From Deltaproteobacteria bacterium (GTDB lineage Bacteria > Desulfobacterota > DSM-4660 > Desulfatiglandales > Desulfatiglandaceae), in contig DUZB01000065.1 in assembly GCA_013349725.1 (NCBI GenBank), positions 1-5,621 on the forward strand: a DNA stretch of 5,621 bases. The letters are read 5' to 3'. This document shows, in pieces, positions 1 through 5,422 of this stretch (position 1 is its first letter; every line of letters starts with the position of its first letter). The position numbers and the translations under genes are program-made. The notes below the pieces were generated by a model. It was not told the DNA's origin. It worked only from the letters and a program-made list of their open reading frames with translations, and did not search any database.

Positions 1-652
1 ACTCTTCAATCCCTAACATGCGGCAGATCTGATCGGCATAAAGGCCCGCCGCATTAATCACGATGGGCGCGGCAAAATGTTCGCCGGTAAAGGTGGTCAT
101 GGAAAACCGGGCATCCGCCCACGATAACGATTTCACCCTACGCCCAAGGTAGAAGGTAACACCATTCGCCGCGGCGTTTTCAGCAAGAGAGATGGTCAAA
201 CCATAGGGACAGATGATACCGGTTGTGGGAGACCATAATGCTTTTATTCCTCCGACTCCAGGTTGTCGTTGCTGCATTTCCCTGCCATCGATGATCTCCA
301 GGCCTGGCGCCCCGTTGGCCTCTCCCTGCTCTTTCAGCCTCTCCAGCTCTTTCACATCGGTATCATCCTGGGCCACGGTCAATTTTCCGATGTACTCAAT
401 TTTCACCTTTAATTCCCGGCACAGGTCGGTCATCATGGCATTGCCCTGTACATTGAGCCGGGCCCTGGTGGTTCCGGGTTTATAATGGATCCCGGAATGG
501 ATAACACCGCTGTTCCGGGAACTGGTCCCCATGGCCACATCCAGTTCCTTTTCAAGCACCGCCACATCCAGTTCAAAGCGGGAAAGCTCTCTCGCAATGG
601 CATTTCCTACAACGCCTGCGCCGATAATGATCACATCATGCTGTTTTGTCAT
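1..652 (-). CDS. FAD-dependent oxidoreductase, L-2-hydroxyglutarate oxidase/GlpA-like, C-terminus cut by window edge
   Basis: This is the N-terminal 217 residues of a flavoprotein of the DAO superfamily, closest in motif pattern to L-2-hydroxyglutarate oxidase (LhgO) and GlpA-like dehydrogenases. The start ATG is at 650-652, preceded by an AGGAAGGG ribosome binding site, and the frame stays open to base 1. A dinucleotide-binding fold opens the protein: GAGVVG at residues 11-16, with the acidic end of the second strand at about Glu34. The stretch SSRNSGVIHSGIHY (44-57) matches the flavin-contact segment typical of LhgO/GlpA relatives, SPTTGI (141-146) fits the same family, and NAAGLYAD (200-207) is the usual second FAD segment. 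No signal peptide is visible, so it is probably cytoplasmic or membrane-associated and passes electrons to a quinone or another carrier. It follows the AbfD-like gene on the same strand but has its own promoter. The substrate cannot be fixed: 2-hydroxyglutarate, glycerol 3-phosphate or another hydroxyacid are all possible. Confidence -1.
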   Translation of the reverse strand, partial: MTKQHDVIIIGAGVVGNAIARELSRFELDVAVLEKELDVAMGTSSRNSGVIHSGIHYKPGTTRARLNVQGNAMMTDLCRELKVKIEYIGKLTVAQDDTDVKELERLKEQGEANGAPGLEIIDGREMQQRQPGVGGIKALWSPTTGIICPYGLTISLAENAAANGVTFYLGRRVKSLSWADARFSMTTFTGEHFAAPIVINAAGLYADQICRMLGIEE

Positions 653-748: not shown

Positions 749-2185
749 TCAGGCATCAATTCCCGCAAGACGTCTGGCAGCCCGCTTTTTTGATTCCAGA
801 TCGCTTTCGCGCAAGATGGTTATGCGATGAGCCTCCGGAGACCCGCCTCCGTGGATGTCGGAGATGGTATCCGCACTCTCCAGGGCCATTTTCTCCACCA
901 GACGAAACATCTTGATTCGATTCTCCACCGGCACTCCTTCGGCGCCTTTCATGTACTTCTTCAGAAGATCGCCCACTTCCGGATTTTCAAAATCCCGGTC
1001 GGATGGCATATCGGCCACAAAACCGCCGCTGATGTCCACCATAAGCCGAATGGCTTCCGAAAGTTCCTTGCCTTCGTGAATCTTGGAAGCGTTGGCCAGC
1101 ACCGTATCAATAAAATAGGTCCCCGACGGCTCTTGCTTTCCTTCGTAGGAAGAAGCCAGACAGCATCCGTACAGGGTCTCCGCCCGATGGATCATGTCGA
1201 TGACCTTCTGCTTGTGATGGCCTACCTTGCCGGTGCCATTGTAGTCCATCATGGACAGGGCCGCCCCGATCATACAGTCGATCTTCCCGGACTTACACCC
1301 CCCATGGCTCTGTCGATGAAAGGAGGAGAATTTGACCACCATGTCAACGGCAAATTCCGTTTCACCACACATGAAGACCTTGTTCCAGGGGACAAACACG
1401 TCATCAAAAATCAGCGTAGGACAGTATTTGGAATAATGCACATTACCCCTGTCGCACCCATCCAGTTCACGCATATCCAGGGTGGATCTCCCGACCACGT
1501 GAATAAGACCCGGAGCGTCCTGTGGAACGGCAAAGGAGACCGCGTAATCTTCATCGCCGGCTCTCATGGCGCGTGTGGGCAACACGATAACTTCATGGGA
1601 AGACAGGGACCCGGTCTGGTGGGCCTTGGCGCCGCGCACCACAATACCGTCTTCCCTTTTTTCAACAACTCTCAAATACATGTCCGGATCGGACTGGGCA
1701 CTCGGCGCCACGGACCTATCGCCCTTCATATCGGTAACGCCCGCATTGCATGTCAGATCGTTTTCCTGAACATACTTGAGGAACTCCAGAAAATTTTTGT
1801 TATAATTTGTTCCGTGTTTCCGGTCGATATCATAGGTGACGATAGACAAGGTGGAGAGGCAATCCAGTCCTGTGCAGCGCTGGTGGCAGGTGCCCACAAA
1901 GTTCCCCAGCTTTCGATTCAACTTGACCCTGGCCACCAGGTCTTCAATGGAAGCAGGGGGAAGCGTAAACCGGTTGACAAGTTCATCAATCAAAGGACTC
2001 GTGGTCACCGCCATATTCCGCGTTTCTTCCATATTGGCTACTTCATAGGTCGCCCCCGTCGCTTCAATTCCGGCCCGCAGTCGCGGATTATCCACCACAT
2101 TTGTGATCTTCTCCCCAAACATATACACGGTGGGATTGAATTTTCTCAACGACTCAATATATTCATCTTTGGTCATTACGGCCAT
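749..2185 (-). CDS. 4-hydroxybutyryl-CoA dehydratase (AbfD)-family flavin/[4Fe-4S] enzyme, divergent active site
   Basis: A complete 478-residue member of the 4-hydroxybutyryl-CoA dehydratase/vinylacetyl-CoA isomerase family (4-hydroxyphenylacetate 3-hydroxylase fold); clostridial AbfD is about 490 residues. Family enzymes are cytoplasmic tetramers that bind FAD and a [4Fe-4S] cluster and dehydrate 4-hydroxybutyryl-CoA to crotonyl-CoA by a radical route. Start signals such as YIESLRKFNPTVYMFGEKI (9-27) and VVRGAKAHQTGS (182-193) match AbfD closely. All four cluster ligands are kept: Cys100, Cys104, His290 and Cys297 (AbfD Cys99, Cys103, His292, Cys299). Lys298 and Thr191 are also kept (AbfD Lys300, Thr190). 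However AbfD Glu257, Tyr296 and Glu455 align with Cys255, His294 and Ser442, and Ala460 with Gly447. The family call is firm; 4-hydroxybutyryl-CoA as substrate is doubtful. The ATG at 2185 is chosen because AAGGAGG lies 8 bases upstream; a second Met at codon 4 lacks such a site. It lies downstream of the GntR gene and upstream of the oxidoreductase gene. Confidence 0.9.
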   Translation of the reverse strand: MAVMTKDEYIESLRKFNPTVYMFGEKITNVVDNPRLRAGIEATGATYEVANMEETRNMAVTTSPLIDELVNRFTLPPASIEDLVARVKLNRKLGNFVGTCHQRCTGLDCLSTLSIVTYDIDRKHGTNYNKNFLEFLKYVQENDLTCNAGVTDMKGDRSVAPSAQSDPDMYLRVVEKREDGIVVRGAKAHQTGSLSSHEVIVLPTRAMRAGDEDYAVSFAVPQDAPGLIHVVGRSTLDMRELDGCDRGNVHYSKYCPTLIFDDVFVPWNKVFMCGETEFAVDMVVKFSSFHRQSHGGCKSGKIDCMIGAALSMMDYNGTGKVGHHKQKVIDMIHRAETLYGCCLASSYEGKQEPSGTYFIDTVLANASKIHEGKELSEAIRLMVDISGGFVADMPSDRDFENPEVGDLLKKYMKGAEGVPVENRIKMFRLVEKMALESADTISDIHGGGSPEAHRITILRESDLESKKRAARRLAGIDA

Positions 2186-2439: not shown

Positions 2440-3141
2440 TCAAAAATCAGGGATATCCACTTTTCCACTCATTTTTTCCGCGCTCTCCAGAACCCTTTCC
2501 TTCACATCCGCGATATGGCCGGTAAGAATCTTCTGGGCCAGCGCCACATTTCTCTCACAGACCGCATCGTAAATTCTCTGATGATCATCGTTCACGGAAC
2601 TCGTAAAAGCCACTGGGAGGTAGTTTCCACCGTATTTCAGAAACAACAGATTGTAGAGCTGTCTCAGGATTCTTATGTGCGTGTCCAAACCGGAAAGAGC
2701 GGCCAGGGTCAGATGAAATTCAACATTTCTGAGCAGCCGGTCCTGCATAAAAGGCTCCTGGCCTGCCGAAACATGAGCATCCAGAGCCGTTTTCAGTTCT
2801 TTCATTCCCGACTTACCGATGCGTGAAATGGTAGCAGGAAGCAGCGCAGGTTCAATCAGGTGTCGAAGCTCATAGATCTCCTTTACCTCCTCCATGCTGA
2901 AGGGGGTCAGAAAAAAACCTCTGTTGGGTTCATGGCGGACAAAACCTTGAATTTCCATCAGCTTCAACGCCTGAATAACCGGCGTCAGGCTCATTTTCAG
3001 TTTATCTGCAACCTCACGGCAGGAGATTTTTTGACCGGGAACCAGTTCCTTCAAATAAAGCAACTGCCGAATGCCCTTATAAGCCTTCTGGCTGCGTTCC
3101 CCGTTCTGATCTGAATTTTTCTCTTTTTCTACTTTAGCCAT
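2440..3141 (-). CDS. GntR-family transcriptional regulator, FadR/FCD subfamily
   Basis: A 233-residue DNA-binding regulator of usual length for the FCD branch of the GntR family. The winged helix-turn-helix lies at about residues 18-78, with the recognition region around KISCREVADKLKMSLTPVIQAL (split as 38-59) and the wing FVRHEPNRGFFL (67-78). The all-helical effector domain spans about 83-220 and keeps the typical polar set Asn139, His143, His187 and His209. In this family these residues usually bind a metal that helps hold a carboxylate effector; Asn instead of Asp at the first position is a common variant. It is divergent from the ligase operon across a 122-base gap and precedes the AbfD-like gene on the same strand, so it probably controls both by responding to a pathway acid. 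The ATG at 3141 has only a weak purine-rich site (GGAAAAG, 2 bases away), which suggests low expression. The stop is TGA-type at 2440. Effector and direction of control are unknown. Confidence 0.9.
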   Translation of the reverse strand: MAKVEKEKNSDQNGERSQKAYKGIRQLLYLKELVPGQKISCREVADKLKMSLTPVIQALKLMEIQGFVRHEPNRGFFLTPFSMEEVKEIYELRHLIEPALLPATISRIGKSGMKELKTALDAHVSAGQEPFMQDRLLRNVEFHLTLAALSGLDTHIRILRQLYNLLFLKYGGNYLPVAFTSSVNDDHQRIYDAVCERNVALAQKILTGHIADVKERVLESAEKMSGKVDIPDF

Positions 3142-3263: not shown

Positions 3264-4403
3264 ATGAGACTGCAGGAGTATGAAGCTGCGGATATTTTTG
3301 AAAAGGCCGGTATTCCCGTACCGCGAAGGAGGGTGGTGGAAACTACCGGAGAGGCGTTGAGTGCAGCGGGGGAAATCGGCTATCCGGTAGTAATCAAGGC
3401 CCAGGTGCTGGTAGGGGGCCGCGGACTGGCAGGAGGAATCAAAACGGCCAAATCGCCTTATGAACTGGAAACTCAAACCGATGCGTTGCTTGGTTCCGAC
3501 ATCAGGGGATTGCCGGTAAACAAAATTCTGATCAGCCAGCAGATTGAGATTGAAAAGGAGCTGTATATAGGGATCACCGTTGACGGTTTCACAGGGAAAC
3601 CGGTGATCGTGATCAGCACGGAAGGGGGCGTAAATATCGAAAAGACGGCCCGGACAGCTCCGGATAAAATTGCGTCTGTTCATGTGGAACCAGGCCGGAA
3701 TTTTTATCCCTACCAGGCAAGAACACTGTTTCGCAAACTCAAAATGAGTAATCGTCTACTGGTATCCTGTGCTGACATTCTTGTCCGCCTTTACAAGGTA
3801 TTTGTTCAAAATGAAGCCCTCATTGCCGAAATCAACCCCCTGGTTGTCCAGCCCAACGGAGGCCTGCTGGCCGTGGACGCGGTGCTTGAAATCGACAATT
3901 CGGCCATCTCAAGGATAAAATATTCCATTCCCGATTTCTTGGGGCGCATAGATAATCCCCTGGAGCGCAGGGGAAAAGAGATCGGCGTTACCTATGTGGA
4001 TCTGGACGGCGACATCGGGCTTATCTCATCCGGCGCCGGGCTTGGTATGGCGAGCATGGACATCATTGGAGAACGTCTTCGTCCGGCCAATTTCATGGAA
4101 ACCGGCGGAGGGATCACGGAAAAGCTGCTCTATAAATGTATGGAACTCCTTATGATGAAGAAAGGGGTCCGTGCGGCATTTATTAATATCTATGGTGGGA
4201 TCAATCCGATTCATGAAGGCGCAAAGGGCGTTGTTCGGTACATCAGGGAACACGACATCAAGATCCCCATTGTCGCAAAGGCACTGGGAAACCGGCAGGA
4301 AGAAACCTGGGAAATTTTCAGGAATGGCGGGGTACACGTGGTGACGGAAGCCGCTACGGAAAAAGCGATCGATCGCCTCTGTGAACTATTGGAAACCAAC
4401 TGA
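3264..4403 (+). CDS. sucC: ADP-forming acyl-CoA ligase, beta subunit (SucC-like, altered acyl-site loop)
   Basis: A 379-residue homologue of the succinyl-CoA synthetase beta subunit (E. coli SucC 388). The symbol names the family, not a proven succinate specificity. With the alpha subunit it would catalyse acid + CoA + ATP to acyl-CoA + ADP + phosphate, or the reverse, in the cytoplasm. The ATP-grasp domain occupies about residues 1-230: VVIKAQVLVGGRGLAGG (42-58), Glu189 and Asn191 in EINP, and Asp205, matching E. coli Glu197, Asn199 and Asp213. Pro20 matches the residue linked to ATP rather than GTP preference. The CoA-ligase domain follows, with DGDIGLISSGAGLGMASMD (248-266) and GGG (281-283). 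The loop that reads GGI-x-RCD in SucC proteins reads GGINPIHEG here (311-319), so the usual Arg and Cys are replaced by Pro and Ile. That loop lies by the acyl group, which suggests another substrate, possibly a hydroxylated, longer or otherwise substituted acid. The SucD-like gene starts 13 bases downstream. Confidence 0.88.
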   Translation: MRLQEYEAADIFEKAGIPVPRRRVVETTGEALSAAGEIGYPVVIKAQVLVGGRGLAGGIKTAKSPYELETQTDALLGSDIRGLPVNKILISQQIEIEKELYIGITVDGFTGKPVIVISTEGGVNIEKTARTAPDKIASVHVEPGRNFYPYQARTLFRKLKMSNRLLVSCADILVRLYKVFVQNEALIAEINPLVVQPNGGLLAVDAVLEIDNSAISRIKYSIPDFLGRIDNPLERRGKEIGVTYVDLDGDIGLISSGAGLGMASMDIIGERLRPANFMETGGGITEKLLYKCMELLMMKKGVRAAFINIYGGINPIHEGAKGVVRYIREHDIKIPIVAKALGNRQEETWEIFRNGGVHVVTEAATEKAIDRLCELLETN

Positions 4404-4416
4404 GAGTGAGGAAAAC

Positions 4417-5289
4417 ATGAGCATCTTTCTTGATAAAGATACCCGCGTTATCGTACAGGGCATCACAGGGAAAATCGGCAGCGTCCAAACCAAATGGATG
4501 CTTGATTACCATACCAATGTGGTAGGAGGAGTAACTCCGGGCAAAGGAGGAGCAAAGGTTGAAGGCTTACCCGTCTTTGACAGCGTGGAGCAGGCTGTTC
4601 AGGAAACCGGCGCCAACGCCTCCGTTTTCTTTGTTCCGGCGCCTTTCGTCTTAGACGCCTTCTATGAAACGGTGGACGCCGGCATCCCGTTCATCGTGGT
4701 GGTTCCTGAGCATATCCCGGTTCACGATGTCATGAAGATGAGGGCGTACGCTCACGAAAAGAACGTATTTGCTCTGGGGCCGACGACTCCCGGCATACTG
4801 GTACCCGGAGTCGGAAAAATGGGTATTATGCCCGCATCCCTTTTTGTCCCCGGTCGCGTGGGCATCATTTCGCGCAGCGGCACCCTTTCCTATGAATTTG
4901 CCGGCATCCTTTCTGAAGTGGATGTGGGACAGAGCACCGTTCTGGGAATGGGCGCAGATCCCGTAGTACTGACAAATCTCTCCGAAATTCTGGAGAAGTT
5001 CGAATCCGATGGGGATACGGATGGGGTGGTCATCGTGGGCGAGGTTGGCGGAGAACAGGAAGAGCGTGCCGCTGAATTCATCCGGGACAACATGAAAAAG
5101 CCTGTGGCAAGCTACATTGCGGGTCGTTTTGCCCCGCAGGGCAAGCGGATGGGGCACGCCGGCGCCATCGTACGGGGTTCGTCCGGAACCTTCGAGGGGA
5201 AACAGAAGGCAATGGATAACGCAGGCGTAACCATGCTCGCATCTCCCATTGACGTGGCGGACTGGGCCCGCGGAAACAACCTTAGATAG
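4417..5289 (+). CDS. sucD: ADP-forming acyl-CoA ligase, alpha subunit (SucD-like)
   Basis: A 290-residue homologue of the succinyl-CoA synthetase alpha subunit (E. coli SucD 289); the symbol marks the family. It binds CoA and carries the histidine phosphorylated during turnover. The CoA-binding Rossmann domain opens with VIVQGITGKIGS (11-22) and VGGVTPGKGG (36-45). The active-site His247 sits in GKRMGHAGAI, equivalent to E. coli His246, and Glu209 in VGEVGG is equivalent to Glu208. ISRSGTLSYE (151-160) is also typical. The motif that is GPNCPG in classical SucD reads GPTTPG (121-126): both the Asn and the Cys near the CoA thiol (E. coli Cys123) are Thr. The ATG at 4417 is chosen because it gives the standard MSI-x-x-DK N-terminus and has GAGGA 4 bases upstream; an in-frame GTG at 4381 would add 12 unrelated residues and overlap the SucC-like gene. 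The 13-base gap indicates cotranscription and likely coupled translation. Confidence 0.9.
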   Translation: MSIFLDKDTRVIVQGITGKIGSVQTKWMLDYHTNVVGGVTPGKGGAKVEGLPVFDSVEQAVQETGANASVFFVPAPFVLDAFYETVDAGIPFIVVVPEHIPVHDVMKMRAYAHEKNVFALGPTTPGILVPGVGKMGIMPASLFVPGRVGIISRSGTLSYEFAGILSEVDVGQSTVLGMGADPVVLTNLSEILEKFESDGDTDGVVIVGEVGGEQEERAAEFIRDNMKKPVASYIAGRFAPQGKRMGHAGAIVRGSSGTFEGKQKAMDNAGVTMLASPIDVADWARGNNLR

Positions 5290-5312
5290 TGGTTTCAAGG
5301 AAATAGTGTTGG

Positions 5313-5394
5313 GGACGCAGATTTTCGCAGATGCGCACAGATAACGAATAAAAAATCAGAGTTAATCTGCGTTCATCAGCGTCCAATTTTTTTT
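5313..5394 (+). terminator. Long imperfect hairpin plus T run, terminator of the ligase operon, built from a 10-base-period repeat
   Basis: Arms at 5313-5332 and 5365-5384 pair over 20 positions with 4 mismatches and are followed by eight T (5387-5394), beginning 23 bases after the SucD-like stop. This fits an intrinsic terminator for the plus strand. The arms are themselves arrays: CGCAGAT at 5316 and 5326 and CACAGAT at 5336, then ATCTGCG at 5365 and ATCAGCG at 5375, all spaced by exactly 10 bases. The 32-base loop is long for a simple terminator, so this may be a dispersed CGCAGAT-type repeat that also serves as one. Confidence 0.6.
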
Positions 5395-5422
5395 ATTAAG
5401 GGATCATTTCACCTTCATTTCC

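Follow-up and report, generated by a model that had tools for sequence, protein, structure and literature searches.

A candidate separate branch of the 4-hydroxybutyryl-CoA dehydratase family with intact cluster ligands and replaced active-site residues

4-Hydroxybutyryl-CoA dehydratase (4HBD) gives its name to a family of FAD- and [4Fe-4S]-containing enzymes, and its chemistry, which acts on a C4 hydroxyl group, is redox-neutral. Two solved members, AbfD from Clostridium aminobutyricum (1u8v) and the archaeal enzyme from Nitrosopumilus maritimus (6vjr), both carry Glu257, Tyr296 and Glu455 (E/Y/E; AbfD numbering is used throughout unless the window protein is named). In the clostridial enzyme, these three residues are reported to be essential or almost essential; they were reportedly subjected to mutagenesis by Zhang et al. 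in 2015 and are said to have been proposed to start the radical. For 4HBD, an allylic ketyl radical and a flavin semiquinone that forms as the substrate binds have been described (PMC13101534). The enzyme (K14534, COG2368) also served one study as a marker for the 4-hydroxybutyrate CO2-fixation cycles; many of the matches there turned out to be relatives with no part in carbon fixation (PMC7872239).

The window, i.e., the whole stretch of 5,621 nucleotides analysed, contains five genes, three on the minus strand and a divergent ligase pair on the plus strand. The gene under study (749..2185, minus strand; 478 aa, ATG start) encodes an AbfD-like protein with the domains HpaB_N and HpaB (PF11794/PF03241), which HMMER aligned over nearly the full length to 1u8v (465.7 bits) and to 6vjr (435.7 bits). 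On its 3′ side lies the N-terminal part of an FAD-dependent oxidoreductase (DAO; 2..652, minus strand), cut by the window end, whose nearest models—type 2 glycerol-3-phosphate oxidase and L-2-hydroxyglutarate oxidase—are both matched under cut-off. A GntR/FCD transcriptional regulator (2440..3141, minus strand; 233 aa) is encoded 254 bases upstream of the AbfD-like gene. The divergent pair comprises a SucC-like ligase beta subunit (3264..4403, plus strand), with the altered motif YGGINPIHEG, and a SucD-like alpha subunit (4417..5289, plus strand), with its start ATG at 4417, 13 bases past the beta subunit. The intergenic piece at 5310-5395 (CGCAGATTTTCGCAGATGCGCACAGATAAC...) has the look of a repeated element, by eye only.

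The [4Fe-4S] ligand residues of AbfD (Cys99, Cys103, His292 and Cys299) are all matched in the window protein, namely by the predicted ligands Cys100 (codon 1888-1886, minus strand, as for all codons given here), Cys104 (1876-1874), His290 (1318-1316) and Cys297 (1297-1295). Thr191 and Lys298, corresponding to AbfD Thr190 and Lys300, are kept as well. An earlier note, made by eye, had called these six residues intact and had paired Cys255 (TGT, 1423-1421) with Glu257, His294 (CAT, 1306-1304) with Tyr296, and Ser442 (TCC, 862-860) with Glu455; HMMER and codon checks bear out both statements. A further swap, Lys253 (1429-1427) for Gly255, is absent from that note. The least straightforward column is that of Glu455, which a three-residue deletion adjoins and at which MAFFT --auto places an Asp; this shifted pairing was ruled out, since HMMER on 1u8v and 6vjr, MAFFT L-INS-i and a motif-anchored reading all give Ser. 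The last reads the residue three places ahead of the His in HG[AG]GS, a pattern unmatched in four of the 31 E/Y/E rows. By HMMER, the codons at 857..862 thus place Ser442-Asp443 against Glu455-Ser456.

When 118 sequences were classified by their residues at positions 257, 296 and 455, 76 were C/H/S, one X/H/S (unresolved residue), two A/H/S, one S/H/S, 31 E/Y/E and seven others. Throughout the 80 sequences with His and Ser, henceforth xHS, the CCHC ligands, Thr190 and Lys300 are conserved (80/80 each), and so, by definition of the set, are the changes from Tyr296 to His and from Glu455 to Ser (80/80 each). Further positions shift together with this pair relative to the 31 E/Y/E sequences: Met149 becomes Val in 79 of 80, Glu257 becomes Cys in 76 and Ser456 becomes Asp in 78, while Gly255, a glycine in 31/31 E/Y/E sequences, is Lys in 79 xHS sequences and unresolved in the remaining one; the two sets were sorted by the same H/S and E/Y/E residues, and the tree gives the same split. 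In this maximum-likelihood tree of 76 rows, drawn with its root at the midpoint and accompanied by a program warning of long branches among outlying rows, 38 xHS rows are separated from 31 E/Y/E rows by a branch with a support of 100/99. Both solved 4HBDs stand on the E/Y/E side; seven rows belong to no group, and one of these, L089, falls with the E/Y/E rows. On sequence grounds, the swaps are not a matter of chance, given that the ligands are all kept, that other positions co-vary and that the tree agrees.

The 120 matches listed nearest to the window protein (79-94% identity) have Cys at 257 and His at 296, and the 120 listed nearest to AbfD have Glu and Tyr at these positions. A deeper xHS branch, represented by L167 and L168, has 52% identity to the window protein. 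Among the 120 matches listed for this second branch, His and Ser are present in all, as are the CCHC ligands, Lys at 255, Val at 149 and Lys300 (120/120 each); position 190 is Thr in 118 and Ser in two. Position 257 is variable, with Ala in 96, Cys in 15, Ser in six, Val in two and Thr in one of these 120 matches, and His101, found in 75/80 of the xHS set, is replaced by Phe (87), Tyr (24) or Val (9). Since Ala, Ser, Val or Thr stands at 257 elsewhere in xHS, Cys255 does not define the clade and was dropped as a candidate key residue (Ala is present in L178 as well). The Cys/His/Ser triplet that had been put forward as a clade signature therefore survives in its His and Ser, and not in its Cys. 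As read from these alignments, the markers of the clade are His294, Ser442, Lys253 and Val150 of the window protein. The suggestion of a distinct branch is upheld by the support of 100/99, and that of an undescribed one agrees with the papers listed by open-access literature searches under the 4HBD name, among which no description of the xHS branch was found.

Two kinds of stray relatives were encountered. The AbfD relative encoded in L089 (5443-6879, plus strand; 44% identity) reads Ala/Tyr/Val where E/Y/E would stand, has Thr190 and Lys300 replaced by Gly and Ser, respectively, and possibly represents another functional branch. AbfD relatives at 34% identity (L013:8001-9440, L014:1228-2685, L025:1438-2925 and L071:14864-16354) miss some of the cluster ligands, having VEHY or CPHY at the four ligand positions; two of them occur in Dehalococcoidia MAGs.

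With the window protein as a query at 1e-40, some family member was detected in 138 of 395 genomes from the phylum of the Desulfonema magnum genome; identity is 68-82% in the best 30 rows of this search, one of them partial, and drops to 51% in the next row of whole length. At 1e-160, matches were obtained in 28/46 genomes of the class of G387, in 20/85 of the order of G192 (two of them from the 52-53% branch) and in 11/242 of the order of G007, and at 1e-155 in 7/8 genomes of the class of G130 and 4/55 of the class of G045, these genome samples being overlapping ones. Named members among the matches listed include Desulfatiglans anilini, Desulfonema magnum, Desulfobacula toluolica and Syntrophus aciditrophicus, several of which are known for the degradation of aromatic compounds. 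In the second branch, at least three proteins among the matches listed bear Chloroflexota or Dehalococcoidia names; the L167 protein found no match in 350 Chloroflexota genomes at 1e-160. Many oxygen-avoiding bacteria carry an xHS relative of a radical enzyme that goes by the old name in databases.

The AF2 model of the window protein has a pLDDT of 89.7, with residues 442-444 below 50. 1u8v and 6vjr headed the Foldseek matches (TM-score by query, 0.96), and a general resemblance to acyl-CoA dehydrogenases (TM about 0.5) was also seen. This resemblance, together with the loss of the proposed radical relay, would suit an enzyme that has kept fold and cluster and acts only as a double-bond isomerase or as a cluster-bearing dehydrogenase akin to acyl-CoA dehydrogenases. 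However, the conservation of the ligands, Thr190 and Lys300 in 80/80 sequences argues for retained cluster chemistry, and we consider such a function very improbable. From the 4HBD structure, we presume the swapped positions to be at the substrate site. On balance, the xHS protein has lost two acids and gained one Lys and one His, and four side chains have become smaller, which suggests a substrate that is bulkier and anionic.

The gene neighbourhood was compared by tblastn on 81 xHS loci, of which four were removed as duplicates. In the resulting 77 distinct loci, 47 contain a SucCD-like ligase, 21 a 2-oxoacid:ferredoxin oxidoreductase and nine neither, and at the identity thresholds used no locus contains both CoA-forming modules. 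The exclusion has a Fisher p of 3.6e-12, calculated ignoring kinship, with the pattern running between related genomes. Three of the neither-type loci (L063, L105 and L126) are short or at a contig end, and L126 has pieces of oxidoreductase beta (55%) and gamma (43%) just under the thresholds; the ligase-type locus L064 has an uncounted oxidoreductase alpha (48%) at the far end of its stretch. Nine further loci on pieces of 2.8-4.4 kb, kept outside the 77, divide into two ligase, five oxidoreductase and two neither. The ligase was therefore given up as a universal partner, and the expectation of the earlier note that the gene always sits beside a SucCD-like ligase fails, with 47/77 loci so arranged and 21/77 having the oxidoreductase instead.

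The GntR/FCD regulator accompanies 37/47 ligase loci, the DAO 16/47 as well as the neither-type loci L157-L159, and a D-2-hydroxyacid dehydrogenase is found with oxidoreductase loci only (10/21). On the tree, at least three switches between ligase and oxidoreductase are needed (30 labelled rows). The dedicated ligase (67-72% to that of the window) is present in 11 of the 17 genomes searched and was not found in the other six, which had been chosen as oxidoreductase-type or neither-type. An oxidoreductase alpha subunit of at least 60% identity occurs in 9/19 genomes and in none of the ten ligase-type ones, so that no genome tested combines it with the dedicated ligase; in G554, such an alpha subunit lies away from the xHS gene. 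This 60% line is not a clean one, because some alpha subunits adjacent to xHS genes are only 57-58% like the query.

At 20 control loci with E/Y/E-type or other paralogues (L076-L095), no ligase, regulator or DAO was matched at 1e-15, and one (L089) gave a weaker oxidoreductase match (33-49% identity). These controls bear on the view that the xHS enzyme is still a 4-hydroxybutyryl-CoA dehydratase/vinylacetyl-CoA isomerase, with a radical relay rebuilt on His294, Ser442 and Lys253. The retained predicted fold, ligands, Thr190 and Lys300 would accord with it, as would the name 4-hydroxybutyryl-CoA dehydratase, which several xHS proteins among the matches listed bear in public sources. Against this, the xHS neighbours are lacking at the 20 paralogue loci, bar the one oxidoreductase, and the residues replaced are reported to be essential, or almost so, in AbfD. 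Moreover, G001, the one genome examined for this point, harbours three E/Y/E copies beside its single xHS copy, so that the latter is not simply that organism's 4HBD. Unchanged 4HBD function thus appears distinctly unlikely. The combination of residue swaps and a distinct neighbourhood is consistent with an xHS enzyme that would act on another substrate or use another proton route.

The SucD-like subunit of the window scores over its model cut-offs. The SucC-like subunit scores under those of SucC (342.7 bits against 375.55, and 334.2 against 370) and shares 32-41% with the other SucC paralogues of the searched genomes. YGGINPI(H/Q)EG is present in 41/46 linked SucC sequences (five unmatched by the pattern), and the RCD motif, FGGI(L/T)RCD, in 14/19 other SucC paralogues (five unmatched). 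By these sequence measures, the SucC-like subunit linked to xHS genes stands apart from ordinary SucC. On the oxidoreductase side, the beta subunit encoded in L069 has its nearest relative in a 2-oxoglutarate:ferredoxin oxidoreductase.

In another reading, ligase and oxidoreductase are consecutive steps, connecting 2-oxoglutarate, succinyl-CoA and 2-hydroxyglutarate, and the AbfD-like protein links 2-hydroxyglutaryl-CoA to glutaconyl-CoA. SucCD-like, 2-oxoglutarate-type oxidoreductase, L-2-hydroxyglutarate-oxidase-like DAO and PGDH-like dehydrogenase genes would all fit, and so would the Desulfobacterota among the named members that are known for degrading aromatic compounds. PMC13101534 lists a subunit of glutaconyl-CoA decarboxylase for a Desulfobacterota strain that degrades benzene, which points the same way. 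However, consecutive steps are at odds with the 0/77 loci that have both modules at the thresholds used, and the DAO of D. magnum scores higher with the glycerol-3-phosphate oxidase model, both scores being under cut-off; we regard this pathway as improbable.

Accessory genes were found at single or few loci and include TRAP transporters, an OYE/BaiCD-like flavoprotein, a cupin, GlcD-like proteins and iron-sulfur CCG proteins. A KHG/KDPG aldolase gene lies upstream of the xHS gene in L164 (5510-11081) and L165 (6795-9102), and L164 also has an aldehyde ferredoxin oxidoreductase and a GarL/HpaI-like aldolase. A DAO relative in L011 carries a BFD domain and has Pyr_redox_2 and DUF1667 neighbours; comparable gene runs occur elsewhere among the loci. 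A conserved protein of about 290 aa (L069:3092-3946), matched by no Pfam or NCBIfam model in L069, occurs in an oxidoreductase-type run and has homologues in L176, L182, L188 and L189; the cupin adjoins it in L069, L182, L188 and L189. The adjacent stretches L179 and L169 of G554 form a microcompartment-type locus with a weak BMC match, EutJ, an RnfC-like protein and an aldehyde dehydrogenase that passes the cut-off of the PRK15398 model and that we take to be of the acylating EutE type; genes resembling those of glutamine synthetase and glutamate synthase lie upstream of an xHS gene there. A LarA-type nickel-pincer isomerase of group 22 is encoded near xHS and oxidoreductase genes in L172 (6248-6994), L176 (104-1372) and L177 (938-2242). 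As a lead to the substrate it was abandoned, no function having been found and the terms "group 22" and "LarAH22" being absent from the main text of PMC11770544 and PMC7583248. Together, the accessory genes suggest that hydroxy acids or sugar acids are broken down, but they do not converge on one compound.

Some of these genes would suit a reductive elimination at C2 of glycolyl-CoA or sulfoacetyl-CoA to acetyl-CoA, with electrons from ferredoxin or the neighbouring flavoproteins. If one acyl-CoA could be reached from an acid, a 2-oxo acid and an aldehyde, this would account for the ligase, for the oxidoreductase and, near L169, for the aldehyde dehydrogenase. Glycerate or sulfolactate would fit the PGDH-like, GlcD-like and Ldh2-like families (best model of the last, L-sulfolactate dehydrogenase), and the third-best solved relative of the TRAP binding protein of L176 is an isethionate-binding protein. 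Yet 4HBD chemistry takes place at the C4 hydroxyl and is redox-neutral, and the smaller side chains speak for a bulkier substrate. The Ldh2 score is 273 against a cut-off of 500, and L169 is a single locus with an opposite-strand ORF in between. SauS gave no match over cut-off in the 395 genomes; of 11 SauS-like loci, one (L263) has a SucD-like gene, with 39% identity to the linked SucD, which leaves sulfoacetate via SauCD unsupported. We deem C2 elimination hardly probable.

Our preferred reading, in which belief and doubt are about evenly balanced, is that the window gene represents a separate xHS branch of the FAD/[4Fe-4S] 4HBD family whose enzyme may catalyse elimination from, or hydration of, a short, probably anionic acyl-CoA different from 4-hydroxybutyryl-CoA, in the breakdown of hydroxy acids. 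The SucCD-like ligase, encoded divergently, would convert an acid, ATP and CoA to the acyl-CoA; in other species, a 2-hydroxyacid dehydrogenase would supply a 2-oxo acid, from which the 2-oxoacid:ferredoxin oxidoreductase would form the acyl-CoA. Ligase and oxidoreductase would thus be interchangeable feeders of the xHS enzyme, which would add water to or remove it from the ester via FAD and the cluster. For this enzyme, we infer bound cofactors, a CoA-ester substrate and an anion site. With Lys, His, Ser and small residues replacing two acids and a Tyr, an extra negative group would be expected on the substrate, and the K/H/S set would hold this carboxylate or sulfonate near the position of the 4-hydroxyl group. 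The more specific proposal of a new kind of radical start-up, in which a Lys253-His294-Ser442 anion site replaces Tyr/Glu/Glu, the negative group of the substrate relays the proton or electron, and a hydroxylated anionic acyl-CoA new to this family, its ester fed by either module, is dehydrated, is tentative and, in our estimate, unlikely.

As to the compound, a hydroxy-dicarboxylyl-CoA such as 4-hydroxyglutaryl-CoA, to be converted to glutaconyl-CoA, is a guess; it is the single likeliest case, albeit a rather improbable one. Here, 2-hydroxyglutarate would be activated at C5 to 4-hydroxyglutaryl-CoA and then yield glutaconyl-CoA. This substrate leaves the replacement of the ligase by the oxidoreductase unexplained. 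What speaks against the preferred reading as a whole is that the accessory enzymes disagree on the compound, that the division between the modules depends on identity thresholds and on related genomes, and that the two CoA-forming genes may be separate pathway steps.

If the preferred reading is true, the 4HBD family spans more than one reaction, and the large xHS clade, without all three of the Tyr/Glu/Glu residues and with its cluster ligands kept, is a natural test of their proposed role in radical start-up. In practice, a marker gene for carbon fixation would be misannotated in these bacteria, and the His/Ser/Lys signature would be a simple filter.

Compared with known systems, the xHS protein resembles AbfD (1u8v) in near-full-length homology, predicted fold, the four ligands, Thr190 and Lys300. 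It differs in the replacement of Glu257, Tyr296, Glu455, Met149 and Gly255, in its separate clade, and in a neighbourhood of ligase, GntR and DAO genes or of an oxidoreductase. The N. maritimus 4HBD (6vjr) likewise shares homology and predicted fold, but has E/Y/E itself and falls among the E/Y/E rows. HpaB-type 4-hydroxyphenylacetate 3-monooxygenases have the Pfam domains and the general fold in common with xHS, but the identity is at most 24% among the solved members listed, and the window protein falls far short of the HpaB NCBIfam cut-offs (173.4 bits against 480.2, and 77.5 against 885.2). The genes at 3264-5289 are homologues of SucCD, with the SucC-like subunit under the cut-offs and its RCD motif lost. 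The xHS protein is, hence, a member of the 4HBD family by homology, while its residues and its place in the tree set it apart from the enzymes with 4HBD function.
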